Shown here: in pieces, positions 28,108-54,164 of the stretch
How the letters are laid out: the number at the start of each line of letters is the position of its first letter
Position numbering within the stretch: position 1 is the stretch's first letter
Source of the DNA: Dicyema japonicum
Lineage: Eukaryota > Dicyemida > Rhombozoa > Dicyemidae
NCBI GenBank assembly: GCA_011109175.1
Contig: RDEW01000001.1
Coordinates: 322,395-386,394 of the forward strand
Length of the DNA: 64,000 nucleotides
Reading direction: 5' to 3'
The notes under the pieces: model-generated
What the model was told of the DNA's origin: nothing
Seen by the model: the letters and a program-made list of their open reading frames with translations, nothing else
Database searches by the model: none
Program-made: the position numbers and the translations under genes

Positions 28108-28929
28108 ATGAAACTAATGACAAGTTATAGCCAAATTATAGTGATTCTGATATATATAATATTCTCTACAAAAATGAGTACTGAAGTCACCGGATATAAA
28201 AAAAGCGATTGCCCTGTCCCTACATGGCTAGTTCCAATAAAGTCTAATGATCAGACCTTCTCCGTCTTATTTCAGGGAATTGTAAATTTGACTTATTCTG
28301 ATCCAAATAAAGGAGTATTAAATGTTATAAACCAAGTTGCGTGAAATTAATTTGAATGATTCTACGATTATATCTGGGAAGAATATCGACTTTCCGCATT
28401 ATTATATATCTTTATTATCAGGCAAAAACGGAATTGAATTAGAATTCAATTTTATTAATGGGGTGTCATTATAAAATATTTTGCGATCATTATCGATAGT
28501 AATATGATATTTTGAGCTAAGATAATTTGGATTCCTGATATTAATCATTATTATAATATAGCATTGAAGAATACTCATTTTAACTGTCCTAACTTGTTGA
28601 TAAAATTTGGCCCGGATTATAAAGCGAAAATTTATCATATGAAGTTTCAAATTTTTGATGGAAAAAATGGCACAAGTTTTTATGGAAGAAGTTAAATTTA
28701 TTAATAATCATTAGAATCAACGTGTGATCCCTCGATACCTATAAATAAAGTAGTTTATCCACTGAATGGTAAAATTATAATTTATTTTATAGAAACTGAT
28801 TGTACAAATAAAACTATAGTTAAAAGTAAATATAATTTTATTTCTATAGGTCCTAATGTTGATAGTTCTATAAAACGTACAATATTGGGTAAATTAATGA
28901 TTTTCCTTGTGGGAATATTAGCTATATAA
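28108..28929 (+). CDS. Repeat-domain secreted/membrane protein, single-unit member with five 22-24 nt introns
   Basis: ATG 28108 opens SYSQIIVILIYIIFS, a signal-peptide-like hydrophobic segment, then EVTGYKKSDCPVPTWLVPIK and SNDQTFSVLFQGIVNLTY. Candidate introns, all GT...AG, are 28315-28336 (22 nt), 28499-28521 (23), 28691-28714 (24), 28769-28792 (24) and 28826-28849 (24). With them removed, the frame runs through DSTIISGKNIDFPHYYISLL, NTHFNCPNLLIKFG, KIYHMKFQIFDGKNGTSFY, STCDPSIP and a hydrophobic end LGKLMIFLVGILAI, stop 28927-28929. One in-frame TAA remains at 28472-28474, so this copy may be a pseudogene or have a sequence error. Three conserved Cys may pair. A further hydrophobic reading lies one frame over downstream, so the true C-terminus is open. 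Function unknown. Confidence 0.6.
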
Positions 28930-29685
28930 TTATAATTTGGGCTTCTATTATATTTGGACTTTTGTTATTATTTGATTTTTTACTTATTATTTACACAACC
29001 TCATACAATAAGTGATCGGTAAGGACAAGTTGGTTTCGAAAATATGAACAGAAAATTATCAGACTATGTTGAAATCAACTGAGAACACTAAGAATGTGTC
29101 AAGGAGCTACAGAAAGGTAATACTTAACCAGTGGATCAACCAGCAGAACAGGAATAGTTTGGCCACTCTGTGGGTAGACGTTTAAAAGCCTTTGGTTCAA
29201 TGGATCACATGACTTTTTGTATCGGATACTCGATAACTCTAGATTCCCTTACTGGATTGTAGATTTCGTAACAAACTTTAAAGAAATATTTAAAATCTGC
29301 CACTAATTTGCTCCCCCTGTGATCTGAACTAACTTGCTCGACGTAATAGATATAGATATCAAGATGTGTTAGACTTTGGGAACCACTATGTTAGAGGATA
29401 AAAAAAGCTATGTCTTAAATATCGAAGCGTTGAAGTTAATATTTGGTGGGGTTAAATAGAGGATCGAGAGCCTGGAAAAAACAAGATTAATTTCGAATGC
29501 TTCTACAATTCTTCAGAGAACTGGAGAAGTCGAATTTTGTTTGAGGAAAGTGGGGATTCTGCGGGTGATAAAATGGAAGAAAACATTTACCGCAATCGTA
29601 GGTATAAAGATCCCCCTGTTATGCATCTGGACTTAAAGAGCTCCATGAGAAATCTTTAATAGGACAAAAACGAAGGAAGCAATTA
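28930..29685. other. No supportable gene
   Basis: The first ~70 bases contain a hydrophobic frame (IIIWASIIFGLLLLFDF) that could be a shifted C-terminal membrane helix of the gene just upstream. The rest is AT-rich, with only short frames on both strands. Confidence 0.35.
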
Positions 29686-29689
29686 CATG

Positions 29690-29897
29690 GAACTCCTTTC
29701 GAATGTTTAGGAGATATCAACGTCGACGTCAGCGAATCATCTCAGTGGTTATCACATGGGAACAATTTTCCAAGATCCAAAGGAAGACCGTAATTTGTTC
29801 TTCAACTGTGCTGGAGAAAAGTGCAACAAATTTAACTCTTCCAGGAAAAGCGTCGAGCATTTGGCAACAAGGTATGGAAAAATTAAGATTGAGTTGA
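29690..29897 (+). pseudogene. R2-like zinc-knuckle remnant
   Basis: One frame reads GDINVDVSESSQWLSHGNNF, matching SSEWLSKGNN of the copy at 23.8 kb; the next reads EDRNLFFNCAGEKCNKFNSS and SRKSVEHLATRYGK, matching the knuckle region of that copy. Two of the knuckle cysteines are replaced (CNKF for CNHC, TRY for TQC), so the metal site is lost. Only about 70 residues survive. Confidence 0.55.
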
Positions 29898-30889
29898 AAT
29901 AGAATGAAACAATAGTGACTAATGTAAATTGATGTGCTCAACGATAATTCGTCTCCTCTTGTTAAAGTGCTGTGAGAGAGGAGACTGACGACATGATTTT
30001 TGCCACTGCATTTCATCAGTTCTATTTAATGATGGCATCGGTTTTGACAGATAAGACAATAAAGACGATATCCAAGGCGAAGAGTAATGGGCCGAGGGGT
30101 TCTCCTTGTACTCCAGTAATCAACTTGAAGCTGTGTTGACAGAAAATCAATGTTCAGTGATCACCATAATGAAGGTTTACATAAGATCTCGATATACTAC
30201 AAAAGAGTGCGAAGAGAAAAGCTTCATAAAGAAAACTGGTACAACGAGTAGAAAGAGCACAGCAAAAGCGAAACTCTAAGTATTCATGTGCTCATGGGTA
30301 ACGTTGGATTGCTTTAAAAACCATCAAACATTCTAATTGATGCTATAAGTAATATAAACTCAGTTTAGATTAGTTGGTAATTCAATTCCTTTTGCTAATT
30401 ACTTAATCAGATCCAGCTTACTAGGAGACGCTCAACCCTGGTCGGAATTTAAAAAATTCATATGAGAGACTATTTGTTCACTAAAATCTGGGATTGTTCA
30501 CAGCCTTCTGGAATATTTTCTCAAATCACTGTGCTTGGATGAGGCTACTAGAATGAGTCAGGATCAACAAATTAGTCAGTTTGGTTTTACCATGTCATTT
30601 AAAATTTATTAGTATTATTAATAGAGAGATTTTTTTGTTAATTCGCTGTTGAGACGTCTAATTCTTTTGCGCCTGCAACGATGGAATTCTTGAGTCGTCC
30701 AGAGAATCTGATTTCTACACGATCAGAAGACCCTAGAGAGCGCTGTTCGTTATTTGAGTGAATCTCGCTCGCCATCCTGAATGGGAATAGCAGGACAGAT
30801 GCTATTAGACCATTTGCTAACTTTTTTTCCTATATGTTTTATTACATTGGCACATTTTATATGGAGAGATTGTTAAATACGAATTAACT

Positions 30890-31115
30890 TTCCCTCCTAT
30901 AGCCGGTATCAGCAAATTATATCTCCAAGTTATTGCGCCGACGATTAAATATGCCTGTTCTCCCTGGAGATTCGTTGTTCCTTGTAAGAGGGTGGAGCGT
31001 ATGAACTCGCTCAGACAAAATATCATGAGGAATATTCAATCAGACTTTACATCCATCCCCAGTCTCTTTTCAGAAATGGCCAGGGCTTCCTACGCATGTG
31101 CAAACTAGAAAACCA
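30890..31115 (+). pseudogene. C-terminal fragment of a Jockey-like reverse transcriptase
   Basis: The frame reads ISKLYLQVIAPTIKYACSPW, then RVERMNSLRQNIMRNIQ. It aligns with STLYQQTIAPAIEYASVAW and QRINSIYRKTISML of the element at 61.5-64 kb (thumb/connection region). The minus-strand ORF 30817-31026 is a shadow. The catalytic domains are not adjacent. Confidence 0.6.
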
Positions 31116-31439
31116 TGTCAGAAAGAGGGTGTTTCATACGGAGCAATTCAAATAGGCATTTAAAAAAGTGGACTCCGATAGAATTTCTCTACAGAAATAA
31201 AAGAAGACACTTCAGAAACGCTGTTGGTTCACTGGCTGAGCATTCGAAGAGAATTCGAAAGATGTCGGAGGCTGGGAGAAATTATTAAATACGAATTAAC
31301 TTTACTGATGATTAATATAATCCTAAATTAAAAAAATAGCAAATAAAAAAATTAATTAATTTTAATTTAAAAAAACAACTAAATCTCAATGAACACTTGG
31401 AACCGTCCGAAGGAATTCCCAGAGACTCGAATCAAAGCA

Positions 31440-31884
31440 TCACGCATTACTAAGTTATTTCATCCTTGGGTAAACTCAAGAATGGCAGAGCTTCTGGACG
31501 GGACAAAGTGTGTGCAGAATTATTGAAATACACGCCAGAAAGGGTGGCTTAGTTAATCTGCACAATCCTGAACAGGACGTTCAAATGTCACAGTCCATTT
31601 GATGCGGGGAATGGCACCTTGATCCCAATTCAGAAACCTGGAAGAAAAGAGGAAATCTAAAATGGTAGCGACCTTACCCGTTAGCTTGGGTGGACTGGGA
31701 ATCCTTTCACCAAAAAATTTGGTTTGCTCCGCGATTCCGTCCTCCTTGTGCCCCATCCGATTGATGATCAGGATGATTTTCCAACTTTAAACAGAATCCT
31801 CTGAAATCACAGATGTGGAGCAATTGAAAAGGATAATGCCTGAGCAGAAAGACCGTCACAGGACAATCTGAGAGATTTCTTAAC
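31440..31884 (+). pseudogene. Reverse transcriptase fragment of another non-LTR family
   Basis: The frame LKNGRASGRDKVCAELLKYTPERV, then ILNRTFKCHSPFDAGNGTLI, then PIQKPGRKE, matches the pre-palm region of the widespread animal non-LTR type with LKNGKAPG.D...ELLKYAPE and L.PLQKPGK. A shifted frame further on reads FGLLRDSVLLVPHPIDDQDD, probably a later part of the same protein after deletion. It ends against the dispersed TTA-tailed repeat at 31885. Confidence 0.6.
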
Positions 31885-32000
31885 CAATCAAACTAACTGT
31901 TCTTTACTTAAATAAAGTGTGTGTCCTGCCTATGCGGAGCTATAAAATACTATGGCTCTCGTGAAAAGGCTTTATTATTATTATTATTATTATGACCTAG
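31885..32000 (+). repeat. 3' part of the dispersed TTA-tailed repeat
   Basis: This has taactgttctttacttaaat, tgtcctgcctatgcggagct and gctctcgtgaaaaggctt, followed by a (TTA)n run at 31971-31993, the longest tail of any copy. It is in the same orientation as the palindrome right-arm copy. The tail suggests a retroposed 3' end. Confidence 0.65.
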
Positions 32001-32553
32001 TGTTACATTTGAGACATTTTTATTTATTTAACACCAAAGACCACGGTAAAACCAAAACTAAAAGTTTCCTCACTTCCGAAGTAATGTCTCTGCATTTCAG
32101 GTTCTTTTTGAATAGAGTAAGTAGTCCACCCCCTCTTCTTTTTTTTACGGTCTATCCTGATTGCTTCGTATCCAGGGAATGAAGGAGTGGAATCATGCAT
32201 GCGGAGTTTAGTTCTTGAATCATGGCCACGTCAATCTTCTGATTTGCCAGGATTGAACGGAGTTCCCTGACCTTGCCTTTAATTCCGTTGATGTTCAAAT
32301 GGAGAGCAGTAAATTTCCTTTCTTGGGCTGAGGGTTTTCGCCGGGAATGGGACTTTTTTGAAGCACATCGCTGGGGGTCGATAATGACCCCCGGGGGGAA
32401 GGAGTCTAATGGTCTTTTTTGGGAGGGCATTAGAAGCCCTCTGGACGTGGCCAAATCCTTTTGAATTTTTTGAATTGGTGGACCACATAACGCCACGCTA
32501 CAAGAGACATGGTATTGATATGCTACAATACTTCGATTTAAAAAAGAGAGCAA
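31995..32553 (-). pseudogene. AP endonuclease N-terminal fragment of a Jockey-like retrotransposon
   Basis: The minus-strand frame 32553-32152 ends with the opening strands of an AP-type endonuclease: ALHLNINGIKGKVRELRSIL, then IDVAMIQELN (the catalytic Asn and Glu of the family are in LNINGI and IQE). A stop follows, and GGGLLTLFKKNLKCRDI continues the domain to about 32000. The plus-strand ORFs 32273-32464 and 32409-32594 overlap it and are shadows. Upstream Pro/Lys/Arg-rich sequence may be the end of ORF1 or a leader. Confidence 0.6.
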
Positions 32554-32594
32554 TTAAAAGATGTATTCGGAACTGGCATCCAATCAATTTTTAA

Positions 32595-32786
32595 CGTCTA
32601 CAGGGTGTAAATTGTATTTTTGCCTCTTTATTTCCCCCAATACCATCAAAAAGAAAAATTGAAAGAACTTTGAGGAGTACATATGCAATCCTGAGCATCG
32701 GGAAAATCCCATCAGACGTGTGCAATAATTTGTATAGCCACATGCGGAGTTATTTAGTCAAAGCATTGGCTAAAGAAGTTTTTTAA
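32595..32786 (+). CDS. Unidentified coding segment (possible exon)
   Basis: An uninterrupted 63-codon frame with protein-like composition: GVNCIFASLFPPIPSKRKIE, RTLRSTYAILSIGKIPSDVC, NNLYSHMRSYLVKALAKEVF, then TAA. It begins just after a stop, and an AG at 32602-32603 could be an acceptor. It is followed 51 bases later by another open frame on the same strand, so it may be one exon of a gene reaching 33.7 kb. No family recognised. Confidence 0.35.
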   Translation, partial: RLQGVNCIFASLFPPIPSKRKIERTLRSTYAILSIGKIPSDVCNNLYSHMRSYLVKALAKEVF

Positions 32787-32837
32787 TTTTGTTTTTTTCT
32801 GTTAATTATAAAAATTGTTTTTTTTTAATTTGAAATT

Positions 32838-33239
32838 ATGCAAAAATTATTAAACATTTTGACAAAGTTAGTAGACAAATCGAAAAACCCCCTAAAGTTA
32901 AATTTATTTCTTGTGGTGATGAATACATTTGTTTCTGCTAATCCGAGTGGGATTATCACGGACCTACCTGCGAATAAGCGGAATGTTAAAAACAATGATA
33001 ACCAGGTTAATTGGTCCAAGTGTTGTTCGGAATACAAAAAACTGATGAATGAGTTCATAATCCACTTTCTTAACCAGAGCCAGGAAAATATCATATCTCT
33101 CCAGGCGATTATCGACCAAGTGAATAAGGAAGACAAAGATGAGTGGGTATCGGAAGTTTCCCGAGTATTTGAAACAAGATTTGAAAGACTATTTCGAGGT
33201 GGAAAGTACCGTAACAACTTCTTAGAAAGGAGATTGTAA
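32838..33239 (+). CDS. Unidentified 133-residue protein or exon
   Basis: The frame from ATG 32838 starts MQKLLNILTKLVDKSKNPLK, followed by a hydrophobic stretch LNLFLVVMNTFVSA that could be a signal sequence if translation starts later, then a charged helical part (CCSEYKKLMNEFIIHFL, IIDQVNKEDKDEWVSEVSRV) and a basic end. Charge pattern favours this strand over the overlapping minus-strand ORF 32825-33217. After the TAA, another frame (CNWYLLPINYYINSF, IVDIVYDGQRAYDVLSQNV) continues at once, so the stop may lie in an intron; I could not fix its ends. The first 28 bases closely resemble the palindrome minisatellite unit. Confidence 0.4.
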   Translation: MQKLLNILTKLVDKSKNPLKLNLFLVVMNTFVSANPSGIITDLPANKRNVKNNDNQVNWSKCCSEYKKLMNEFIIHFLNQSQENIISLQAIIDQVNKEDKDEWVSEVSRVFETRFERLFRGGKYRNNFLERRL

Positions 33240-33715
33240 TTGGTATCTGCTTCCTATCAATTATTATATAAATTCATTTACAACAACGAATATAAACGAT
33301 ATTGTGGATATTGTTTATGATGGACAGCGGGCGTATGACGTTCTCTCCCAGAACGTAACCGAAAGAATAAGAATTAGATCCACCATATGTAACCAAACTT
33401 ACAAAACTGAAGAAACAGCTTGAATGAATAACAGAGCTTACCGGACAGAGAGGAAATCAAAGATATGACGATGAAACGAGGAATGTGCTTTCCCAATTTG
33501 GATATCCAAGATGGGTGAATTCGGCACAACTGGTGCTTGTATTCAGGATGACATAAAGATTTTGGTGAAGTAGTACGAATCCATGAATCTTTTAAGGAAT
33601 TCAGAAAACATAATTGGTGTTTTGAACTTAATTGAAGATACAAAAACCAGATGATTGAGGGGCCTCCACTTTCACCAGGTTTTTGTACAGGCAGTGTAAC
33701 CCCGTTGAAAAGCTA
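33240..33715 (+). pseudogene. Continuation of the unidentified gene at 32.8 kb, frame-broken
   Basis: Consecutive plus-strand frames look coding but do not connect: DCNWYLLPINYYINSFTTTN...YDGQRAYDVLSQNVTERIRI to 33420; then GNQRYDDETRNVLSQFGYPR or, one frame over, LPDREEIKDMTMKRGMCFPN; then HKDFGEVVRIHESFKEFRKH. This is what unresolved introns or several indels would produce. YDVLSQNV and TRNVLSQFG may be two copies of one short repeat. No family recognised. Confidence 0.3.
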
Positions 33716-33929
33716 ATCAAACAATCTTGGATACTTCCTTGAACATAAATGAACGAGGCTCTTTTTCGGACTGTAAAAGAGGTAAGATGTCATTCCCTAT
33801 TAAACCCGTAGAATTTTATTCCTCAATTTTTTAGATCAGCATTCCGTTCAGGGTTACAGGTATCGGTTCTAAGCCCAATATTCCGTTGATGATTGACTTT
33901 AGAGTATTAAGCACCTGTTTATTTTTTTA

Positions 33930-34350
33930 TATTGCAAAGGACTCACCGTTTCCTCGGCGACCGATACTATACCTCGAGCGATTCTCTCCCATTACCCCTG
34001 GACATTGCCCACGTGGATGAATCATATAATAGGACTTGTTTAACAAAGGCGTTGTATAGCCTCGATTGTCTTCCGTCAATTCAGTTTTTTTTAACTATGT
34101 TCAGCGCAGCTGTATTCGTCGAACGATGTCCTTAGTGTCTCCAAATAAGATCTTGGTTTTTTTTTTTCCATGGTTCATTTTTCATCCTTCTGATATCCAC
34201 TACTTCCGTTTTGTAAATATTCATCTTAACACTTTTTAAGTTCATTAGGAGCTGCTTCCAAGTAAATGAGAACTGGTCTTATTTATTAGCCACAATTTTT
34301 AATTTAATTTTTCTGGACAGAAATAAGACAAAGCAGACGATCTATCCATA
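33930..34350 (-). pseudogene. Reverse transcriptase thumb fragment
   Basis: The minus strand reads LKSVKMNIYKTEVVDIRRMK, like the LK.N..KTE thumb motif that follows the catalytic YADD in RTs. The same stretch recurs, better preserved, inside repeats B (51.2-51.75 kb) and C (57.0-57.4 kb), where the DD-containing motif is still visible. Confidence 0.45.
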
Positions 34351-34675
34351 AGATTGGGTCAATGATCCAGTGGTCACCAAGGATCCATGTGAGACAAGAT
34401 GGCTTAGAGAGCTTTTGTAAGAGGAAACAGTCTGGCGATTCACGGTCCCTAAATTTAGTGCTCTTTTAACTGCTTAATTATAATAATCTAATAAATTACC
34501 AAAAATGAGAATTTTATTAACACGTGATTTACTTTTCATGAAAAAACTAAATTGTAAATTATAAAAAAAATAATGCTATTTTTGTCAACTCAGCTGATAG
34601 ATTCTCGCACTTGTTTCATAAGACGATATCGAGAAAAACATGAAATAATCTTTTACTGAAGAAAGTTTTTTTGCT

Positions 34676-34865
34676 GACTTTAGAGATCATTGACGCAAAA
34701 GATCTTAGAAAAGAGACCGTCTTGGCCCCGAAAACTCTACTCGTCTCGACAACGATGGGCTGAACTTGGTGACTTTAGAGATAATTGACCCAAACGATCT
34801 TAGAAAAGAGACCGTCTTGGCCACGAAGACTCCACTTGTCTCGACAACAATGTGCTGAACTTGGA
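34676..34865 (+). repeat. Two-copy tandem duplication, 95-bp period
   Basis: gactttagagat...attgac at 34676 repeats at 34771 with a few substitutions. On the plus strand both copies encode a similar 29-residue unit, LTLEIIDAKDLRKETVLAPK and VTLEIIDPNDLRKETVLATK, but a stop ends each unit, so it is not an open gene now. Confidence 0.7.
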
Positions 34866-35771
34866 TTCTTGTTGAGAGGCTGTCGTATTTTTTATCTTGA
34901 AAATTTCGAAAGTCCAAGCAGTTAAAAACTAAATATTAAATTTTTTCCATTAATTACTTTAATAGAGAAGGAACTCTTATCTAATGTTGAGAATGAAGTT
35001 TTGTCCATTTCTTCAATAAGAAAGTTCAAAACGTAGCTATCGAAATACGCTCTATAAATCATCCAGTCACACGTGGGTTATTGGTGGCCCTTTAGATCAT
35101 TGAGCTAATCTAACGGAGTTGATCGTCAGCTTGTAGTCCAAGGATTCCTGACGTCTCAATGAGACAAACAAGTGATCTTCCTAAATGTTTCGATACTTCC
35201 TTCTCTTAAGACCCTCGGTTTGAACAGAAGCATGACCTGGCCAAATAATTCTATGGAAGTTGGAAGAGAGAACTGATAAGTACTGCAGCAAAACCAAAAA
35301 GTTGGGCACCTTCTTAGGGGACCACAAAGATAGTCAATAGAAAACACTTGCAAATGCAACTTTACAAAAGTTTACAATGTAAAACATATATGTTAATGAT
35401 TGAATAACTAATATTTTGGAAAAAATATCCGATTTGTAAAATCGGATTAGAATTTTAAAACGTATCAAAAAATTTCAAACTATGAGACATTTTTGTTGGA
35501 AGAAACTAAAGTCTTATGTTTAATACTCTGTTTAAAATCACCCCAATTCGACAGGTAACACAGAGTATATTATCAATGTAATATTTAGTATTACGATTAT
35601 ATTAAATATTTAAATTTTCATATAAATTCATTAAAAAAGTTTAAATATCATAATTATATGAGAAAAAAATTAATTTTTATTAAATTTAAACAAAATTGTA
35701 AAAACCAAATTTTATTAATTTAAACATAAATATAATAAATATAAAAGATTAAGTTATTATCAATAAAATTA

Positions 35772-38025
35772 ATGACAAGTTATAGCCAAATTATAGTGAT
35801 TTTGATATATACAAAAATGAGTAATGAAGTCACCGGATATAAAAAGAGCGATTACTCCGTCCCAACATGGCTAGTTCCAATAAAATCTAATGATCAGACC
35901 TTTTCTATCTTATTTCAGGGAATCATAAATTTGACATATTTTGATCGAAATCAAAACGTATTAAATATTATAAACAAAGTTTCGTGAAGTTAATCTGAAT
36001 GATTCTACGATTCAATTTGGGAAGAATACTGACTCTCCACAATATTATATATATTTGTTATCAAGAGGAAACGGAATTGAATTAGATTTCGATGTTATTA
36101 ATGGAGAAGTTAATATAATAAAATTCGTGATCATTAACTATAGTAAAATGATAATTTAATCTAAGATGTGGGGTTTAATGATATTAATAAGTATTCGAAT
36201 AAAGCATTGAAGAATACTTACTTGGACTGTCCTAACTTGTTGATACAATCTGGCACAAAATATAAGGCGAAAATTTATCATATGAAATTTCAAATTTTTA
36301 ATGGAAAAAATGGCACAAGTTTTTATGGAAAAAGTTAAATTTATTATAAAAATTAGAATCAACGTGTGATCCCACGATACCTGAAAATGAAAAAGTTAAT
36401 CGACTGAATGGTAAAATTATAATTCATTTTTTAGAAAATGATCGTACAACTAAAACTACAAGTAAAATATAATTTTATTCCTTTATATCCTAATGCTGAC
36501 AGTTCTAAGGAAATAAGTATAGAAGTCACCGGATATAAAAAAAGCGATTACCCCGTACCAACATGGCTAGTTCCAATAAAATCTAATGATCAGACCTTTT
36601 CTGTTTTATTTCAAGGAATCGTAAATTTGACATATTTTGATTCAAATCAAAACGTATTAAATATTATAAACAAAGTTTCGTGAAGTTAATCTGAATGATT
36701 CTACGATTCAATTTGGGAAGAATACTGACTCTCCACAATATTATATATATTTGTTATCAAGAGGAAACGGAATTGAATTAGATTTCGATGTTATAAATGG
36801 AGAAGTTAATATAATAAAATTCGTGATCATTAACTATTGTAAAATGATAATTTAATCTAAGATATTGGGTTTAATGATACTAATAAGTATTCGAATAAAG
36901 CATTAAAGAATAGTTACTTGGACTGTCCTAACTTGTTGATACAATCTGGCACGCATAAGGCGAAAATTTATTATATGAAATTTCAAATTTTTAATGGAAA
37001 AAATGGCACAAGTTTTTATGGAAAAAGTTAAATTTATCATAAAAATTAGAATCAACGTGTGATCCCTCGATACCTAAAATGAAAAAGTTAATCGACCGAA
37101 TGGTAAAATTATAATTCATTTTTAGAAAATGATGGTATAACTAAAACTACAAGTAAAATATAATTTTATTCCTTTAGGTCCTAATGCTGACAGTTCTAAG
37201 GAAATAAGTATAAAAGTCACCGGATATAAAAAAAGCGATAACCCCGTACCAACATGGCTAGTTCCAATAAAATCTAATGATCAGACCTTTTCTATCTTAT
37301 TTCAGGGAATCATAAATTTGACATATTTTGATTCGAATCAAAACGTATTAAATATTATAAACAAAGTTTCGTGAAGTTAATCTGAATGATTCTACGATTC
37401 AATTTGGGAAGAATACTGACTCTCCACAATATTATATATATTTGTTATCAAGAGGAAACGGAATTGAATTAGATTTCGATGTTATTAATGGAGAAGTTAA
37501 TATAATAAAATTCGTGATCATTAACTATAGTAAAATGATAATTTAATCTAAGATATTGGGTTTAATGATACTAATAAGTATTCGAATAAAGCATTAAAGA
37601 ATAGTTACTTGGACTGTCCTAACTTGTTGATACAATCTGGCACGCATAAGGCGAAAATTTATCATATGAAATTTCAAATTTTTAATGGAAAAAATGGCAC
37701 AAGTTTTTCTGGAAAAAGTTAAATTTATTATAAAAATTAGAATCAACGTGTGATCCCACGATACCTAAAAATGAAAAAGTTAATCCACTGAATGGTAAAA
37801 TATAATTCATTTTATAGAAAATGATCGTACAACAAAACTACAAGTCAAAGTAAAAAATAATTTTATTTTTTTGGTCCTAATGTTCATAGTTCTAATGGAC
37901 AAAATATTGGTATTTCTGAAGAACCAAATGTTGATAGTTTAAAGAGGCTAAAGGTTGATAGTTCTTTAAAACGTACAATTTCGAGTAAATTAATGATTTT
38001 CCTGCTGGGAATATTAGTTATTTAA
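35772..38025 (+). CDS. Repeat-domain secreted/membrane protein, three-unit member with 22-25 nt introns
   Basis: ATG 35772 opens TSYSQIIVILIYTKMS, then three copies of a unit beginning EVTGYKKSDY.VPTWLVPIK (third copy KVTGYKKSDN). Unit 1 introns: 35958-35979 (22 nt), 36143-36165 (23), 36334-36356 (23), 36411-36434 (24). Unit 2: 36654-36675, 36839-36861, 37027-37049, 37103-37125, 37153-37177 (25). Unit 3: 37345-37366, 37530-37552, 37718-37740, 37795-37817. Each removal restores the family frame. Lesions: the intron 5 acceptor of unit 1 is AT instead of AG at 36485-36486; unit 2 lost one A near 37078; unit 3 has a one-base loss near 37833 and a doubtful intron 5 acceptor. The C-terminus is SKLMIFLLGILVI. 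It may be a pseudogene or carry sequence errors. Likely secreted or surface-anchored; role unknown. Confidence 0.55.
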
Positions 38026-39049: not shown

Positions 39050-39190
39050 TAATAATAACAGTCTTTTCACGAGAGCCATAATATTTATAGCTCTGCATAG
39101 GCAGGACACACAATTTATTTAAGTAACGAACAGTTAATTTTAACTAATCGTAGAACCAAGGAATGACCTTCATTTCTTTTTTTCTTACGG
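39050..39190 (-). repeat. Dispersed TTA-tailed repeat, copy at end of repeat A
   Basis: Minus-strand copy with gctctcgtgaaaagac next to the aataataa tail and tgtcctgcctatgcagagct. Truncated at the A boundary. Equivalent copies end the conserved parts of B and C. Confidence 0.65.
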
Positions 39191-39499
39191 ACAATGGATA
39201 ACTCGTCATGCAGAAAGTTAGCATTTATAATCTTCTGCATATTTACTTACAACCTGAGACTTGAAAAGTAAGGGGGAGATAACGATTTACAGAGTGTCGA
39301 AAATAGAGGAGTCTCCCTGATCGTCCCATATTCTAGGTATCATATACAGTTCAACTGCCCAATAGAAAAGCGCCCAAAATATAGAGATTAAAATAATTTA
39401 TCCATTTTTTCAATACTATTTTTTAGTAATTTATTAAACAACATGTTAATAAATAAAAAAGCCATTTGATTTATTAATTAAAATAAAACAGGTTCAAGA

Positions 39500-44231: not shown

Positions 44232-44868
44232 TTACTCGACAACGCGGCAATCCGGAGTAATCGTTCCGGCTTCATCACTTTTTGTGGCTTTATGTCTGTC
44301 GCTTCTACCAATCAGCGATAGAAGCGTACAATTAAATTTGGTAAAAAAACTCACACCTTTCCAAATTCTCATGAAAGAGGAACGTCGTAGATTCAGGAAA
44401 GCTATGGGTACTGGAGGAGCACAGCGCAAAAAGTCACTTACTTCCATCTCCAGTCGCTCCTTTGCTGTCAATAAAAGTCTGTACCACAGCTCTTTCACCT
44501 TGTCAGGAATTTTTTTTCAATGATGATCAAAAATAAACCTGATGGGCTCTGATTTGACATCAAAGACCTCAAACATGTTTTTTACTGTTTTAACTTTGAA
44601 AAAAACGTTCACAACTAACAATTGAGTAGCCAACTGTGAGTTATGAACGAATGCAAAGTTGGAAAAACATTTTAGCCAGTTCAACTTTTGAAGCCATAAA
44701 ATCCTTCGCAATTCTGTTTCTACTTCGGAAAAGAGAGTCAACGATTTCTTCGTAGAAAATAGATGAGTTCATGTCAGTCTCAAAATAACTACCAAAATTC
44801 TGACATTTTCGGTTCAAGGTTTCCAAATGTTCCTTGTTTTCAACATCAATTGAATCCAGCCTTAACAA
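44232..44868 (-). CDS. Unidentified minus-strand coding region, possibly intron-split
   Basis: Three overlapping minus-strand frames are charged and protein-like: LDSIDVENKEHLETLNRKCQ...NRIAKDFMASKVELAKMF; FVHNSQLATQLLVVNVFFKV...NMFEVFDVKSEPIRF; KELWYRLLLTAKERLEMEV. Removing a 52-nt GT...AG segment (about 44632-44683) would join MASK to LATQLL in frame; the overlap could equally be a decayed gene. The third piece ends GGAGATGGAAGTAAGTGAC, which looks like a strong donor and also recurs as an inverted 25-bp copy at 44987. No family recognised. Confidence 0.3.
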
Positions 44869-45011
44869 AACGAAAGCTTGTCAGGGAACCTACGAACCCG
44901 GAATGTGCGTTCTAAAAGTTAGACCTTCAGTCTGTGTCCGAATTTAATTTATTAAGAAAAAAAGAGAGTGAATGGTCAATAGCGGCCGACTGGAGATGGA
45001 AGTAAGTGACT
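44432..45011. repeat. 25-bp perfect inverted repeat pair
   Basis: The sequence cgactggagatggaagtaag plus tgact occurs on the plus strand at 44987-45011 and as its reverse complement at 44432-44456. The spacing is about 530 bp. No TIR-type ends or target duplication were found around the pair. Confidence 0.6.
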
Positions 45012-45179
45012 GCGTGGCTATTTCCCCTCAAGAGATTCGCTCAAATAACCAGGAGCGCTCATGGGTGTCTCCTGATCGTGTAGAAATTCGATTCCTGAGA
45101 CGACTCAAGAATTCCAGCGTCGCAGGCTTAAGGGAACCAGATGTCTTAAGGGAGTGTAACGAACAAAAAATAATTGGGT

Positions 45180-45481
45180 AGGGCCGCGTACTTTACCCTT
45201 TCAATCCCTCGGCCTTCTCAGCGGCAGAACAGGCTCCAGAGGCATTCTGTAGTAAGTTGTCGATGGAGGTGACGTCAAGAGGATTTCCGGCTTCAAAAGG
45301 AAAGGTTATCATTCCAATCTGGTCGTTTTCCGTCACGCCTACAAAGACAGACTGGTTCGAGCATGGAGCGGTATCCGACGGCGTCCAAAGATAACCTAAC
45401 GACTTTGTTCATGGTCATGTGACTGAAAAATCTGCTTGCACTCTTCAGTCTTAATGAGGTCCTCAGATTTAAGGTCAATAA
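45180..45481 (-). pseudogene. Non-LTR retrotransposon C-terminal fragment at start of repeat B
   Basis: The minus strand encodes MNKVVRLSLDAVGYRSMLEP, then CLCRRDGKRPDW and, one frame over, FPFEAGNPLDVTSIDNLLQN. It is the same LEP..L.R.DGKRPDG...FPF block as at 39.5 kb, in the opposite orientation. One-base frame break at the DGKRPDW point. C carries the same fragment with that break repaired. Confidence 0.55.
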
Positions 45482-46269
45482 TTCTATCGAGCCTATCTAA
45501 AACTAAATATTAACTTTTTTTCATTAATTACTTCAATAGAGAGGGAACTCTTATCTAATGTTGAGAATGAAGTTTTGTATATTTCTTCAATAAGAAAGTT
45601 CAAAACGTAGCTATCGAAATACGCTCTATAAATCATCCAGTCACACGTGGATTATTGGTGGCCCTTTAGATCATTGAGCTAATCTAACGGAGTTGATCGT
45701 CAGCTTGTAGTCCAAGGATTTCTGACGTCTCAATGAGACAAACAAGTGATCTTCCTAAATGTTTCGATACTTCCTTCTCTTAAGACCCTCGGTTTGAACA
45801 GAAGCATGACCTGGCCAAATAATTCTATGGAAGTTGGAAGAGAGAACTGATAAGTACTGCAGCAAAACCAAATTGTTGGGCACCTTCTTAGGGGACCACA
45901 AAGATAGTAAATAGAAAACAATTGCAAATGCAACTTTACAAAAGTTTACAATGTAAAACATATATGTTAATGATTGAATAACTAATATTTTGGGAAAATT
46001 ATCGGATTTGTTAAATCGGATTAGAATTTTTAAAATCACCCCAATTCGATAGGTAACACAATGTATATTATCAATGTAATATTTAGTATTACGATTATTT
46101 TGAATATTTTAATTTTCATATAAATTCATTAAAAAGTTTAAATATCATAATTATATGAGAAAAAAATTAATTTTTATTAAATTTAAACAAAATTGTAAAA
46201 ACCAAATTTTACTAATTGAAACATAAAATATAATAAATATAAAAGATTAAGTTATTATCAATAAAATTA

Positions 46270-48521
46270 ATGACAAGTTATAGCCAAATTATAGTGATTT
46301 TGATATATACAAAAATGAGTAAAGAAGTCACCGGATATAAAAAGAGCGATTACTCCGTCCCAACATGGCTAGTTCCAATAAAATCTAATGATCAGACCTT
46401 TTCTATCTTATTTCAGGGAATCGTAAATTTGACATATTTTGATTCAAATCAAAACGTATTAAATATTATAAACAAAGTTTCGTGAAGTTAATCTGAATGA
46501 TTCTACGATTCATTATGGGAAGAAAACTGACTCTCCACAATATTATATATATTTGTTATCAAGAGGAAACGGAATTGAATTAGATTTCGATGTTATAAAT
46601 GGAGAAGTTAATATAATAAAATTCGTGATAATTAACTATTGTAAAATGATAATTTAATCTAAGATATGGGGTTTAATGATATTAATAAGTATTCGAATAA
46701 AGCATTGAAGAATACTTACTTGGACTGTCCTAACTTGTTGATACAATCTGGCACAAAATATAAAGCGAAAATTTATCATATGCAATTTCAAATTTTTAAT
46801 GGAAAAAATGGCACAAGTTTTTATGGAAAAAGTTAAATTTATCATAAAAATAGAATCAACGTGTGATCCCACGATACCTAAAATGAAATAGTTAATCGAC
46901 CGAATGGTAAAATTATAATTCATTTTTAGAAAATGATGGTATAACTAAAACTACAAGTAAAATATAATTTTATTCCTTTAGTCCTAATGCTGACAGTTCT
47001 AAGGAAATAAGTATAGAAGTCACCGGATATAAAAAAAGCGATTGCCCAGTACCAACATGGCTAGTTCCAATAAAATCTAATGATCAGACCTTTTCTGTTT
47101 TATTTCAAGGAATCGTAAATTTGACATATTTTGATTCAAATCAAAACGTATTAAATATTATAAACAAAGTTTCATGAAGTTAATCTAAATGATTCTACGA
47201 TTCAATTTGGGAAGAATACTGACTCTCCACAATATTATATATATTTGTTATCAAGAGGAAACGGAATTGAATTAGATTTCGATGTTATAAATGGAGAAGT
47301 TAATATAATAAAATTCGTGATCATTAACTATAGTAAAATGATAATTTAATCTAAGATATTGGGTTTAATGATACTAATAAGTATTCGAATAAAGCATTAA
47401 AGAATAGTTACTTGGACTGTCCTAACTTGTTGATACAATCTGGCACGCATAAGGCGAAAATTTATCATATGAAATTTCAAATTTTTAATGGAAAAAATGG
47501 CACAAGTTTTTCTGGAAAAAGTTAAATTTATCATAAAAATTAGAATCAACGTGTGATCCCACGATACCTAAAAATGAAAAAGTTAATCGACTGAATGGTA
47601 AAATATAATTCATTTTTTAGAAAATGATCGTACAACTAAAACTACAAGTAAAATATAATTTTATTCCTTTAGATCCTAATGCTGACAGTTCTAAGGAAAT
47701 AAGTATAGAAGTCACCGGATATAAAAAAAGCGATTACCCCGTACCAACATGGCTAGTTCCAATAAAATCTAATGATCAGACCTTTTCTGTTTTATTTCAA
47801 GGAATAGTAAATTTGACATATTTTGATTCAAATCAAAACGTATTAAATATTATAAACAAAGTTTCGTGAAGTTAATCTGAATGATTCTACGATTCAATTT
47901 GGGAAGAATACTGACTCTCCACAATATTATATATATTTGTTATCAAGAGGAAACGGAATTGAATTAGATTTCGATGTTATTAATGGAGAAGTTAATATAA
48001 TAAAATTCGTGATCATTAACTATAGTAAAATTATAATTTAATCTAAGATATTGGGTTTAATGATACTAATAAGTATTCGAATAAAGCATTAAAGAATAGT
48101 TACTTGGACTGTCCTAACTTGTTGATACAATCTGGCACGCATAAGGCGAAAATTTATCATATGAAATTTCAAATTTTTAATGGAAAAAATGGCACAAGTT
48201 TTTATGGAAAAAGTTAAATTTATTATAAAAATTAGAATCAACGTGTGATCCCTCGATACCTAAAAATGAAAAAGTTAATCCACTGAATGGTAAAATATAA
48301 TTCATTTTATAGAAAATGATCGTACAACTAAAACTACAAGTCAAAGTAAAAAATAATTTTATTTTTTTGGTCCTAATGTTCATAGTTCTAATGGACAAAA
48401 TATTGGTATTTCTGAAGAACCAAATGTTGATAGTTTAAAGAGGCTAAAGGTTGATAGTTCTTTAAAACGTACAATTTTGGGTAAATTAATGATTTTCCTG
48501 CTGGGAATATTAGTTATTTAA
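46270..48521 (+). CDS. Repeat-domain secreted/membrane protein, three-unit member in repeat B
   Basis: Same start and three-unit design as the gene in repeat A. Unit 1 introns: 46456-46477 (22 nt), 46641-46663 (23), 46832-46853 (22, one base shorter than in other copies without disturbing the exon frame), 46907-46929 (23), 46957-46981 (25). Units 2 and 3 have equivalents throughout 47140-48300. Lesions: unit 1 lost one A near 46880 and reads AAA-TAG there, and one base is missing just after its intron 5 (tttag then tcctaat instead of gtcctaat). The unit 3 intron 5 acceptor is doubtful near 48370. Ends GKLMIFLLGILVI. Probably paralogous to a functional secreted or anchored repeat protein; whether this copy works is unclear. 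Confidence 0.55.
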
Positions 48522-49544
48522 TTATAATTTGGGATTCTGTTATTTTTTGGAGTTGTTTTCTGATTTGTTATTTATTATTTACACTACAGACTGGAAATCT
48601 CAATCCATCTAAACATTTAGATCGATTCTCTGTAAGAATTACCAAAAATGAGTGCATTCATTCATGAATCAATTCATTAATCATTGATGACCAATATTAA
48701 GGCAGGGAATATTTACCAGAGTTCTGGAATGCTCTTGACTTCTTTTTTCTAATGTTAGGTGTTATATACCATCCGGATCCAATGACAAGTAATTACTGAT
48801 GAGGCGTCACTCATAGATGGAACCTTCAGCCGAGATCTACAGCAGCGACATTCCATCAGAGACCATCAGTCATTTGACCCGCTCTTATGTCAATGTACGA
48901 TATAATTATGTCGCGTCTCACCTGCGCTACCAATCATATTTTACTCGTCAATAAATCTGATACCTTCATTCATCAATATTAATAAGTTTCTAATCAAAAA
49001 TCGTTTCGATAAAAAATAAATTTATTTTTTTATGTTTTTATTTTTACTTAATTTATGTTGATTATTTTGAATTATCTTAATCTGTTACAATCTGTTCAGC
49101 TTTAGCAATGGATTAAACCCATAATTTTTTAAAACTCGTACCTTAAATTATTCACAAAAAATAGCTCATTCCCAATTGAAAAATCATATTTGATTGATGA
49201 ACATTTTTTTTGTTCATCTGCTTAAAATATGTTGAATAAATTCAGTTCAAAATGATCTGCATATTAGTTTTCTAGAATACTTAATCAAAAATTACCTGAA
49301 GCATTTGAAATTTGTTCCAATATCCTGTAATGTTAGTGGAAAACATCATCCGAAGTCTCTTTTATGAAATATATAAACTTTTATACTCATGAATGACTGT
49401 GATTATCCCAGAAACTCCTCTTAGTTTATAAAGGGTGTTTCATTCGTAGAGGAATGAATAGAGCTTCGTTTAAAATTTGTTTCAGTTTTTAGTGGATTCA
49501 TCAGCCATTAAATTTGAAAGATAAAGTTTGATTAAACCTTTATA

Positions 49545-49823
49545 AAATAATAACGGCCTTTTCACGAGAGCCATAATATTTATAGCTCCGCATAGGCAGG
49601 ACACACAATTTATTTAAGACAACTCGCAGGACACACAACTCGCATAGGCAGGACACACATTTTATTTAAGTAAAGAACAGTTAATTTTAACTAATCGTAG
49701 AACCAAGGAATGACCTTCACTTCTTTTTTTCTTTTTTTTGAGTGTGGTCTTTTCTAGAAAAATGAGTTCCGCAGTGAGTATCCACTGATGACGGCGTCAC
49801 TCGTCAAATTCCTTCTGCATCGT
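49545..49823 (-). repeat. Dispersed TTA-tailed repeat in repeat B, with internal duplication
   Basis: Minus-strand copy ending at the cgatgcagaagg boundary. The segment gcataggcaggacacacattttattt (49634-49660) partly repeats 49589-49615, an insertion of about 40 bp not present in the C copy, probably by slippage. Confidence 0.6.
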
Positions 49824-50364
49824 AGATGCGTGGAACTTTCTACCAAGTGAAGTGCAGCGAGAATCGAAATTGTAACTATGATACTAGGTTTATCTAAATA
49901 AACTTTTACATGATCCTCTGAAAAAATAAAATATAATTTCATTACTTCTGATTGCGGATGATCTGATCTTTACAAATATGTCTGATTGATTTTTCACAGA
50001 ATGGGATAAGGTATTTAGTTTTAAACTCTTTTCCTTTTTCTGTTTTGATCTCACAAAAGCCGATTACAAAACAAGTTGTTTCGAATACTTTGCAAATATT
50101 TATTTCACTTAAGGTCTGCATGGATTGTTTATTAGGTTTTTTGGCAATCACGTGGTATTTAGAATCGGAAACACGTCAATCCAAGAATTCTAAAATCACT
50201 ACGAGAATAGAATAGTCAATTCTAAAAATCTAGGCTAAAATTGATCACATTACTCGTTACGTGACCACGTCGCTCAATATATTTTATGTCTTCACAGTTA
50301 TCGCTAATTTTGTATTTTTGTAATGTTGGAGAATCTTACAAATGAAATAGAAGGTATCACTAAC

Positions 50365-50610
50365 ATGGTTTTCAACAACAATGGTTATCAAACATATCGC
50401 TAAAAATCTTGATGTTCCACTAAAAACAGTCTATCGGATGATAGCGGAATTCAATAATATGGAAAAATTTATAAAAACCTGAAGAAAACGCAAAAAACAT
50501 ATACGACGAAAATTCTCTTTATAAGAGAAAGGTTGAATGAAGAATACGATATTTCATGTTCGAGACTTTCTAATGAAATATTTCAAAATGGAAAAAAATA
50601 AGGGATTTAA
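50365..50610 (+). pseudogene. IS630/Tc1-like transposase N-terminus in repeat B
   Basis: The frame reads MVIKHIAKNLDVPLKTVYRM then IAEFNNMEKF, a helix-turn-helix typical of this family. One frame over, PEENAKNIYDE and RERLNEEYDIS follow. No DDE core is present here; the small TIR element at 27.3-27.8 kb carries a C-terminus of the same general type. More intact in repeat C. Confidence 0.5.
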
Positions 50611-51179
50611 TGATGCGAGTCTCCAAACAATTGAAGTGTTGACTATGAATCGTTTAATATTAAAAAGATTAATGGAATCGGTAAATTAATTTATTTTTTT
50701 CTCAAATATGGTGTTAGGTTGTTTTTTGAAAATTTCTGGATAATCTGATAGATTCTCTCTTTAGTGTTGAAATTTCGGATTGATGTGATGAAGTGATGTA
50801 AAAGTGTTCTTAATTAGACTTGAACACCCGTATATGCCCGATACGAGTACAGACTATAAAAACCACATTAAACAGGTCATCAGGCACCTAATCACCTCAT
50901 AAAAATGATTGATTGACAGGTGACATGTAGCCTATTAAAGTAGTCAAAATGTTTTCCAAATTTCATTTTTTTTTGATGTACTTGAGATCAGCATCAAGTA
51001 TCCATGTAAATGTGATCCTTGGTTGATCCAGTCCAACAAAGTACTCCTCCATCGCTATATACGCTGGGGTATCCAATTCCGATCTCAATATATGTCCAGA
51101 AAGCCTTCATCTAAAATCAGTGATCGAAGAGTCAAAGGATCAGTGGAAGCAAACATTACATAAATTTTTTTTGTCTATT

Positions 51180-51760
51180 TTCTTAGGCTAATTCAGTCCA
51201 CCATTGTCCTGAGCAGCCTTCAATGAATCTATCCCATGTTACTCAGCCCTGGACATTGTCCACGTTGATGAATTATTTTTAACATTTTTTTCAGCGCAGC
51301 AGTAGCAGGGGTATTTCCGAGCGATATCCTCACTTTCTCTAGGACCCAAGTTTATTGGTCTTCTTCCATGGTTCATCCGATCTTTTTTCTGTTTATATGA
51401 TATCAACTGCTTCCGTTTTGTAAACATTCATTGTTAGGTGAATGAAAACTGATCTATCCCTCGATATGAAGTCGACGTCGTCATCATAAATGGATCCTCC
51501 TAATTCCCCTTCATAACATTTTCGAAGGTGACGTAGCGCCGTCTCCATGTATATGACAAACATCAAAAGGAAAGAGGGAGTCTCCTTGAGGAGAAACTTT
51601 TTTTCACTTTTGGAGTTACAAGAAGTGGTCTATAGAGAGAAAGAACATGACGCCAACACCCTTGGAGATCCTAATAGGAAAGAAAACAGAGGAGACCGAC
51701 AACAACAAACTTGTGTAGAATCAGCGGAGGAATACACTAAGCCAAGCTGAGGGCATGGAG
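51180..51760 (-). pseudogene. Reverse transcriptase fragment in repeat B
   Basis: The minus strand reads IYDDDVDFISRDRSVFI, then MNVYKTEAVDII, then EPWKKTNKLG. This matches the catalytic DD motif of a non-LTR RT (YADD.DFIS) and the thumb motif L.MNV.KTE that follows. Frames are broken. The homologous stretch in C is at 56990-57410 and a more diverged one is at 33.9-34.35 kb. Confidence 0.5.
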
Positions 51761-52173
51761 TAAATTTGTCAGCATCACTTAGTTTATTTATTTCGGTTTA
51801 ATGGTGGTCTTTGAACTGTTTCTCCCTTATTTTCAGTTTTCATTAATGCCTTTAAATTTATGTTTTTACTCATTAAAACTTTCAACCCTCTCACCAAAGC
51901 ATGTCGTTACAAGGCAGTATAACATAGGTAGACCAACGGTGATGAATCTAGCGATTTGCATTCCATGGATACTTCTCCAGAAATCGTACCCTACAACAGA
52001 TACAACTACTAACTGCATCTGATGATTGGTTTTATCGATTATTAGAAATTATCGTTCATTCTATGATCAGTGTATTTTAATACTTTAAACAACTGACTAA
52101 ATTTTCTATTTTGGAGGGACGAGGAACCAGTTGACCTATCAGTACTTGCGTGGAATTGGTAGGGCCGCGTACT

Positions 52174-52488
52174 TTACCCTTTCAATCCCTCGGCCTTCTC
52201 AGCGGCAGAACAGGCTCCAGAGGCATTCTGTAGTAAGTTGTCGATGGAGGTGACGTCAAGAGGTTTTCCGGCTTCAAAAGGAAAGGTTATCATCCAATCT
52301 GGTCGTTTTCTGTCACGCCTACAAAGACCGACTGGTTCGAGCATGGAGCGGTATCCGACGGCGTCCAAAGATAACCTAACGACTTTGTTCATGGTCATGT
52401 GATTGAAAAATCTGCTTGCACTCTTCAGGTAGAAGTGAATTCTGCTTGCACTCTTCAGTCTTAATGAGGTCCTCAGATTTAAGGTCAA
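52174..52488 (-). pseudogene. Non-LTR retrotransposon C-terminal fragment at start of repeat C
   Basis: An open minus-strand frame: MNKVVRLSLDAVGYRSMLEP, VGLCRRDRKRPDWMITFPFE, AGKPLDVTSIDNLLQNASGA. The conserved block is intact in frame here, so the ancestral insertion was probably less decayed than B's copy. No RT nearby. Confidence 0.6.
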
Positions 52489-53296
52489 TAATTCTATCGA
52501 GCCTATCTAAAACTAAATATTAACTTTTTTTCATTAATTACTTCAATAGAGAGGGAACTCTTATCTAATGTTGAGAATGAATTTTTGTATATTTCTTCAA
52601 TAAATAGATCAAAACATAGTTATCGAAATACGCTATCTAAATCATCCAGTCAAACGTGGATTATTTGTGGCCCTTTAGATCTTTGAGCAAATCTAACGGA
52701 GTTGATCGTCAGCTTGTAGTCCAAGGATTCCTGACGTCTAATGAGACAAACAAATGATCTTCCTAAATGTTTCGATACTTCCTTCTCTTAAGACCCTCGG
52801 TTTGAACAGAAGCATGACCTGGCCAAATAATTCTATGGAAGTTGAAAAAGAGAACTGATAAGTACTGCAGCAAAACCAAATTGTTGGGCACCTTCTTAGG
52901 GGACCACAAAGATAGTCAATAGAAAACACTTGCAAATGCAACTTTACAAAAGTGTAATGTAAAACATATATGTTAATGATTGAATAACTAATATTTTGGG
53001 AAAAAAATACCGGATTTGTTAAATCGGATTAGAATTTTAAATCGTCCAATGCTCTGTTTAAAATCACCCCAATTCGATAGGTAACACAATGTATATTATC
53101 AATGTAATATTTAGTATTACGATTATTTTGAATATTTTAATTTTCATATAAATTCATTAAAAAGTTTAAATATCATAATTATATGAGAAAAAATTAATTT
53201 TTATTAAATTTAAACAAAATTGTAAAAACCAAATTTTACTAATTGAAACATAAAATATAATAAATATAAAAGATTAAGTTATTATCAATAAAATTA

Positions 53297-54164
53297 ATGA
53301 CAATTTATAGCCAAATTATAGTGATTTTGATATATACAAAAATGAGTAAAGAAGTCACCGGATATAAAAAGAGCGATTACTCCGTCCCAACATGGCTAGT
53401 TCCAATAAAATCTACTGATCAGACCTTTTCTGTCTTATTTCAGGGAATCGTAAATTTGACATATTTTGATCCAAATCAAAATGTATTAAATATTATAAAC
53501 AAAGTTTCGTGAAGTTAATCTGAATGATTCTACGATTCATTATGGGAAGAAAATTGACTCTCCACAATATTATATATATTTGTTTTCAAGAGGAATCGGA
53601 ATTGAATTAGATTTCGATGTTATTAATGGAGAAGTAAATATAATAAAATTCGTGATCATTAACTATAGTAAAATGATAATTTAATCTAAGATGATGTGTT
53701 TCCTGATACTAATAAGTATTCGAATAAAGCATCGAAGAATACTTACTTGGACTGTCCTAACTTGTTGAATACAATCTGGCACAAAATATAAGGCGAAAAT
53801 TTATCATATGAAATTTCAAATTTTTAATGGAAAAAATGGCACTAGTTTTTATGGAAAAAGTTAAATTTATTATAAAAAGTAGAATCAACGTGTGATCCCA
53901 CGATACCTAAAAATGAAAAAGTTAATCCACTGAATGGTAAAATTATAATTCATTTTATAGAAAATGATCGTACAACTAAAACTACAAGTAAAATATAATT
54001 TTATTTCTTTAGGTCCTAATGTTCATAGTTCTAATGGACAAAATATTGGTATTTCTGAAAGACAAAATGTTGATTGTTTTAAGAGGCTAAAGGTTGATAG
54101 TTCTTTAAAACGTACAATTTCGGGTAAATTAATGATTTTCCTGCTGGGAATATTAGTTATTTAA
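53297..54164 (+). CDS. Repeat-domain secreted/membrane protein, single-unit member in repeat C
   Basis: ATG 53297 opens TIYSQIIVILIYTKMS, then EVTGYKKSDYSVPTWLVPIK. Candidate introns: 53483-53504 (22 nt), 53670-53692 (23), 53860-53882 (23), 53937-53960 (24), 53988-54012 (25), all GT...AG at the same places as in the other members. After intron 5 the tail runs SPNVHSSNGQNIGISERQNV, SSLKRTISGKLMIFLLGILV, stop 54162-54164. One lesion: an extra A near 53769 (ttgaatacaatc) shifts exon 3. Apart from that, every intron has intact ends, so C is the cleanest reference for the family's exon pattern. Confidence 0.6.

Follow-up and report, generated by a model that had tools for sequence, protein, structure and literature searches.

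The interrupted gene family in the window

A stretch of 64,000 nucleotides (nt) of the Dicyema japonicum genome, hereafter the window, carries a multigene family in which tiny segments bounded by GT and AG interrupt the reading frame. The window corresponds to bases 322395-386394 of contig C1 (RDEW01000001.1) in assembly GCA_011109175.1, which comprises 64,672,829 bases in 191 contigs. When unit D was used as a blastn query against the whole window, eight units of about 690 nt were found at four loci, with one unit at A and D and three tandem units at B and C (Table 1). We consider it quite probable that this is an orphan multigene family in which the GT..AG segments are spliceosomal introns and the window copies are pseudogenes, while intact members elsewhere in the genome are predicted to encode secreted or membrane-anchored surface proteins.

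An earlier sequence-only reading of this DNA had described five homologous GT..AG segments in every copy, and the alignment of the eight units bears this out. All 40 segments start with GT, and 36 of the 40 end with AG when the alignment is read strictly by column (37 when intron 5 of unit C1 is extended by one base); the other non-AG ends are those of intron 5 in B1, B3 and C3. The sizes listed by that reading also hold, with 22 nt for intron 1 and 23 nt for intron 2 in all eight units, 22-24 nt for intron 3, 23-24 nt for intron 4 and 24-25 nt for intron 5, or 22-25 nt overall. It had further expected automated gene calling to miss the genes and leave first exons of 60-80 codons; unspliced reading from the first ATG gives 78 codons in A and 71 in each of B, C and D. 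Of the two exon joins that it named in locus D, 53482 to 53505 is right, while 53669 to 53693 lies 2 nt off the aligned intron 2.

Locus C is a segmental duplicate of B, the enclosing 3.7-kb segments being 95.3% alike. Each of the two has a single start region, situated before unit 1, and a single hydrophobic C-terminal tail, situated after unit 3, and the repeated piece is therefore the outer-domain unit together with its five introns. Upstream of the coding parts the loci share a conserved 5' flank, which is possibly a promoter and leader; homology to two relatives on contig C170 (L009 and L010) begins at 27796 for A, 35256 for B and 52838 for D.

Table 1. Positions of the family loci, their predicted introns and other features of the window.
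Feature	Position	Strand	Description
Locus A	28108..28929	+	1 unit; GT..AG 5/5; longest spliced open reading frame (ORF) 114 codons
Predicted introns 1-5 of locus A	28315-28336, 28499-28521, 28691-28714, 28769-28792, 28826-28849	+	
Candidate 18-nt intron of locus A	28124..28141	+	signal-peptide stretch, 16 nt past ATG, phase 1
Conserved 5' flank of locus A	27796..28107	+	common to B, C, D and relatives on contig C170
Locus B	35772..38025	+	3 tandem units (35755-36510, 36511-37201, 37202-38025); GT 15/15, AG 13/15; longest spliced ORF 210 codons
Locus C	46270..48521	+	3 tandem units (46253-47004, 47005-47696, 47697-48521); GT 15/15, AG 13/15 (14/15 with unit 1 intron 5 one base longer); longest spliced ORF 184 codons
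Locus D	53297..54164	+	1 unit; GT..AG 5/5; longest spliced ORF 149 codons
Predicted introns 1-5 of locus D	53483-53504, 53668-53690, 53860-53882, 53937-53960, 53988-54012	+	
Palindrome	1-12908		12.9 kb; 6.44-kb arms 95.0% alike in opposite orientation, spacer of about 36 nt
Tandem repeat	34671-34864		95-bp unit, two repeats, 89% matches
Large segmental duplications	45172-57856		50172-52154 vs 55921-57856 (91%); 45172-47002 vs 52154-54034 (94%)
LINE-like element, in two pieces	61550-63717	-	adjoining ORFs of 314 and 408 amino acids

Intact relatives and chance controls

At least four further copies of the window type are present in the genome, namely E (contig C170, 232 kb, minus strand), F (contig C170, 168 kb), G (contig C1, 677 kb) and H (contig C1, 684 kb). 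Removal of five segments from E gives a protein of 232 residues, and removal of four from G and from H gives 227 residues in each case, the segments measuring 21-27 nt. F (L010) is a broken copy of E (L009), the two lying in inverted 3.6-kb duplicates that are 96.7% alike with 60 gap positions.

As a control, the longest ORF obtainable by at most five removals of GT-AG segments of 20-28 nt was determined. The real sequences yielded 240 codons for E, 227 for G and 235 for H. None of 200 dinucleotide shuffles of each matched these values (maximum 117 codons), and neither did any of 300 shuffles of each in which the first 200 nt were kept (maximum 176 codons). Chance ORFs in AT-rich DNA were thereby ruled out.

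A distant subfamily with predicted introns at the same positions

A first search with the H protein, with expectation values (E) up to 1, returned 36 matches, including weak ones on other contigs, and led to a sister subfamily. A second search with a sister protein from contig C47 gave 131 exon matches, which group into no fewer than 63 sister loci spread over 32 contigs, fragments included. Sixteen sister loci were fetched with short flanks, four from the H search and twelve from the C47 search, and full-length proteins could be read from five of the six loci taken for that purpose. One gene counted as intact lies on contig C47 at 35.8 kb. The window-type proteins share 20-25% identity with the first of the five full-length sister proteins. 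One weak match of 35 residues to the family N-terminus (G000:C41:15031-15135, E 3.6e-4) lies inside an open frame of 3,989 amino acids.

In the sister genes, introns measuring 23-25 and 24-26 nt occupy the residue and phase that introns 1 and 3 have in the window type. All 16 sister loci yielded a homologue of intron 1, 15 of them at the same residue and in phase 0 (in L066 it lies three residues further on), and 14 of the 16 yielded one of intron 3, in phase 1. Positions and phases of both also agreed when window-type proteins served as queries. A further 13 intron calls of 20-70 nt in sister loci are read as aligner artefacts or decay.

The lengths of the homologues of introns 1 and 3 take all three residues modulo 3. 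Exon 2 was analysed in 13 of the 16 sister loci (L066, L072 and L074 being left out), and its length is 1 modulo 3 in 12 of them, with four different lengths among the twelve. An additional GT..AG segment of 24 nt lies in the signal peptide, 16 nt past the ATG, in all 14 sister loci with a start inside the aligned stretch. Five of the 14 carry an in-frame stop inside this segment, which would disappear with splicing, and three of these five (L061, L071 and L073) are otherwise full length; the pattern is as an intron would predict.

Since introns were kept in all eight window units and the intron-1 homologue in all 16 sister loci, an origin of the copies by retroposition of processed transcripts was ruled out.

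Tiny introns elsewhere in the genome

The genome has 67 homeodomain matches against none in 14 control genomes, and PAX matches at four places, where one of the 14 controls had a match, under the cut-off. It is therefore an animal genome. The size of introns in an ordinary gene was measured in actin, for which a protein read from locus L013 was aligned with splicing to nine of 15 cut loci. Seven good alignments were obtained, including that of L013 as the query source; two loci, L017 and L019, gave no alignment. The seven have 18 introns in total at residues 41-46, 113-117 and 191, 16 of which are 22-27 nt long, the remaining two being of 78 nt and of 34 nt (the latter probably misplaced). Three further calls (17, 25 and 32 nt) fall in coding stretches outside these positions and were set aside as looking like frame-break artefacts. 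In a CCT gene on contig C181, two neighbouring exon gaps each correspond to about 23 nt, made up of 17 nt and two profile positions that overlap. Tiny introns thus appear to be usual in this genome. Actin itself is multicopy, with 76 exon matches, some of them weak, and at least one copy (L016) looks frame-broken. Taken by themselves, the homeodomain and PAX genes, the genome size and the tiny introns point to a dicyemid as the likely source.

The size class is already known for dicyemids. Dicyemid introns are reported to have a mean of 26.2 nt (n=16; PMC2222250) and a median of 27 bp, the value for the orthonectid Intoshia linei being 57 bp (PMC6543705), and D. japonicum is given a genome of 67.5 Mb with a mean intron of 38.2 bp and multicopy clusters that include actin (PMC6736024). 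The introns described here share with those the GT-AG borders, the range of 22-27 nt and the occurrence in ordinary as well as lineage-specific genes, and the genomes agree in the multiplicity of actin and approximately in size (64.7 Mb here). They differ in belonging to an orphan, expanded and partly decayed family, in a lower end of 21 nt with a candidate of 18 nt, and in being deduced from the genome. Sizes in the window (22-25 nt), in the family (21-27 nt) and in 16 of the 18 actin introns (22-27 nt) agree with a narrow range around 26 nt. Introns of the same class occur in lineages unrelated to this animal, in Paramecium (20-35 bp) and in the nucleomorph of Bigelowiella natans (18-21 bp; both cited in PMC2222250), and the introns of these two and of dicyemids are reported to have weak sequence signals (PMC2483917).

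With intact relatives, position and phase conserved in a distant subfamily, and actin introns of 22-27 nt, the view that the segments are real introns of dicyemid size is supported, and those in the window are very likely spliceosomal introns.

Probable decay of the window copies

It had been claimed that in every copy the exons join into one continuous protein unit, and this fails. Single-base frame breaks are present within the exons of five of the eight units, in exon 2 of A (where the frame is regained in exon 3 after a stop), in exon 4 of B2 and C1, in exon 5 of B3 and in exon 3 of D. The break in B2 is identical to that in C1. In addition, the acceptor of intron 5 is lost in B1, B3 and C3. 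All ways of splicing from the first ATG with GT-AG removals of 20-28 nt were followed, and none gave a full-length protein at any of the four loci (longest products in Table 1). The loci thus combine frame breaks and lost splice sites with retained introns, as unprocessed pseudogenes do. As no path gives a full product and frames are broken, all four look like unprocessed pseudogenes; that they are working genes is not supported, and the window copies are likely pseudogenes.

Exon 1 was also compared between window copies. Synonymous change per site exceeds nonsynonymous change in four of six pairs, the other two being B1-D and B1-C1, which hints that the copies were under constraint at least until recently.

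A candidate intron of 18 nt

Six of the eight window-type copies that have a start (A, B1, C1, E, G and H) carry a GT..AG segment of 18 nt within the signal-peptide stretch (in A and E 16 nt past the ATG), at the same spot and in the same phase as the 24-nt segment of the sister subfamily; in D and F the GT is lost. If the 18 nt are retained, the signal peptide is longer than that of the sister type by six residues in E and by five in G and H, and if they are removed the lengths in the two types agree within one residue. Since the segment is in frame and free of stops, the sequence alone is indecisive, and we put the odds that it is an intron at about even. To our knowledge, 18 nt is at or below the size of the smallest spliceosomal introns of animals.

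The predicted protein

The N-terminus of E, G and H reaches a peak of 3.4-3.7 on the Kyte-Doolittle scale over nine residues, and the last 13 residues, which nothing follows, have a mean of 2.6-2.7; these ends would suit a signal peptide combined with an anchor of the glycosylphosphatidylinositol (GPI) type or a membrane anchor at the very end. In the five full-length sister proteins the N-terminal peaks are 2.0-2.8 and the C-terminal 13-residue peak is 2.9-3.7, followed by 18-24 basic, conserved residues. Intact members of both types are accordingly worded here as predicted secreted or membrane-anchored proteins. Each of the eight full-length proteins has 3-9 N-glycosylation motifs, and two cysteines together with 17 other residues are invariant in the alignment of all eight.

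The sister tails end in a short conserved basic stretch, often with YYPL or FYPL, which we take to be a candidate tyrosine-type uptake signal. A, E, G and H have a first cysteine in the outer domain, whereas six of the seven units of B, C and D have another residue there and C2 keeps the cysteine; a late cysteine that occurs in A, E and H has disappeared from all seven. Perhaps these losses reflect a lost disulfide pair.

None of the eight full-length proteins has a Pfam match over the cut-off. RIFIN (PF02009) was rejected, as two of the eight members score 24.5 and 17.4 bits against a cut-off of 32 with a match on the C-terminal part that contains the membrane helix, and TMEM154 was rejected with a score under its cut-off. 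Profile searches of PDB gave no relative (two chains at E 0.41 and 1 are meaningless), and searches among 5.8 billion proteins, with both subfamilies as queries at E 10 and 1, gave none either, the method requiring shared short words. The family is named in no title or abstract opening of the dicyemid literature covered, most subscription papers lying outside that coverage. With no match in Pfam, PDB or the protein database, the products are predicted surface proteins without known kin, and the gene family appears to be new.

Large variable surface-protein families of parasites, such as RIFIN of Plasmodium, have many copies, a signal peptide, a diverging outer part, a membrane anchor, a short basic tail and many decayed copies. 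The layout predicted here resembles theirs, although the Pfam scores do not place the family among them.

Divergence of exons and introns

Exon 2 divergence was determined for 12 of the 13 sister copies (L069 is frame-broken), giving 66 non-independent pairs. The mean proportions of nonsynonymous (pN) and synonymous (pS) differences are 0.282 and 0.300, and introns differ by 0.135; pN exceeds intron divergence in 64 of the 66 pairs and pS in 25 of the 66. In the window type, introns 1-4 diverge less than exons 1-4 in all 14 pairs. The 170 nt that precede the mature protein, which comprise the signal-peptide stretch and some 100 nt of 5' flank, likewise diverge less than the exons in all ten pairs measured. 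Between E and G, exon 1 has a pN of 0.23 and a pS of 0.55, and the middle part a pN of 0.48 and a pS of 0.57. We read this pattern as suggesting that the tiny introns are constrained, that the ends undergo exchange or are constrained as well, and that the middle changes fast; it is no proof of positive selection.

Other features of the window

Among ten window ORFs, Pfam found two reverse-transcriptase pieces and nothing else. They lie in the adjoining ORF pair near the end of the window, each with a partial RVT_1 domain (E 2e-15 and 2.8e-9), and the pair is a long interspersed nuclear element (LINE)-like element in two pieces. Tandem repeats of 21 nt are situated close to the centre of the palindrome listed in Table 1. 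A near-match plasmid search with the window end as query led nowhere.

Discussion

The observations fit together if the following course is assumed. The spliceosome would remove the segments, in a genome where tiny introns are normal, and an N-terminal signal peptide would direct the product to the secretory route. An outer domain bearing disulfides and N-glycans would be held by the hydrophobic C-terminal end, which may act as a GPI-like or membrane tail anchor in the window type and, in the sister type, as a transmembrane helix followed by a short basic tail. The domain would be displayed on the surface of the parasite, facing the host fluid, and would serve as a variable binding or uptake molecule. 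Copies would have spread by DNA duplication together with their introns, the ends staying similar while the middle diverged. In B and C, tandem triplication of the outer-domain unit, with a single start region ahead of the three and a single tail behind them, would have preceded the decay of the loci.

Several points weigh against this explanation. Splicing is read from genomic DNA, and the surface location, the anchor type and the disulfides come from the same kind of reading. The middle of the protein is not strongly hydrophilic (best 19-residue mean 0.9-1.6), and the N-terminal hydrophobic peaks of the sister type are modest. The ratio of nonsynonymous to synonymous substitution (dN/dS) in sister exon 2 is weakly below 1 (mean dN 0.36, dS 0.39), so that coding constraint is modest. 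A protein search based on short exact words would miss distant relatives or those in unsequenced dicyemids. As to decay, single frame breaks may partly be assembly errors, and an actin locus also looks frame-broken; the synonymous excess in exon 1 of four of the six pairs within the window hints at constraint up to recent times.

The last two points belong to an alternative that we regard as unlikely, namely that the window loci are working genes. The breaks would then stem from the assembly, or exon skipping or the use of different splice sites would get round them, and B and C would encode three-domain proteins. Units B1, C2 and C3 are indeed internally in frame once the five segments are removed, and exon 4 measures 54 nt in six of the eight units, so that skipping it would preserve the frame. 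However, the shared break of B2 and C1 is no random error, since it is identical in both, five of the eight units are broken, three intron-5 acceptors are gone, two exon-1 pairs show no synonymous excess, and no GT-AG path of 20-28 nt from the first ATG reaches a full product.

Still less probable is a reading in which the family travels with a mobile element, as the gene of an accessory membrane protein for instance, and is not a host surface family. Dispersal over at least 32 contigs, a type I membrane layout, many decayed copies and nearby repeats would all suit such an element. On the other side, introns were kept, hence the spread did not go through RNA, and the DNA shared among window-type copies varies, with 0.3-0.5 kb upstream and pieces up to about 0.85 kb downstream of A; no fixed ends were seen in this comparison, which covered window-type loci, the sister copies having flanks too short to tell and no search for element genes having been made beside them. 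That the segments are insertions in an old, wholly non-functional repeat family, and not introns at all, is extremely improbable. Many copies are decayed, three of the eight intron-5 acceptors in the window are lost, and the copies are located among duplications and repeats, as such a family might be; but E, G, H and five sister genes have open frames once the segments are taken out, position and phase are conserved at 20-25% identity, the shuffles exclude chance, and actin has introns of the same sizes.

The explanation preferred here thus remains a surface-protein family with genuine tiny introns and decayed copies in the window. What the proteins do is a more tentative matter. They might face the host fluid and serve in binding or uptake, varied by duplication, a possibility that we put forward with some reserve. 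The outer cells of dicyemids are reported to take up nutrients from host urine by endocytosis, dicyemid genes are few, 5,012 being predicted in D. japonicum (both PMC6736024), and cell-surface receptors such as G protein-coupled receptors are described as greatly reduced in dicyemids (PMC6854800). Equally tentative is the broader picture of a dicyemid with a large, fast-changing surface-protein family, in which tiny introns change less than the flanking exons and one intron, whose position is ancestral, has been reduced to 18 nt.

For gene finding in this genome, a minimum intron size of about 15-20 nt is needed, and copies have to be spliced before intact ones can be told from decayed ones. 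With intron divergence below that of synonymous sites (0.135 vs 0.30), it would become testable how large a share of a 24-nt intron is taken up by splicing signals. A large orphan family of predicted surface proteins would rank as a main candidate for the contact of dicyemids with the host kidney.

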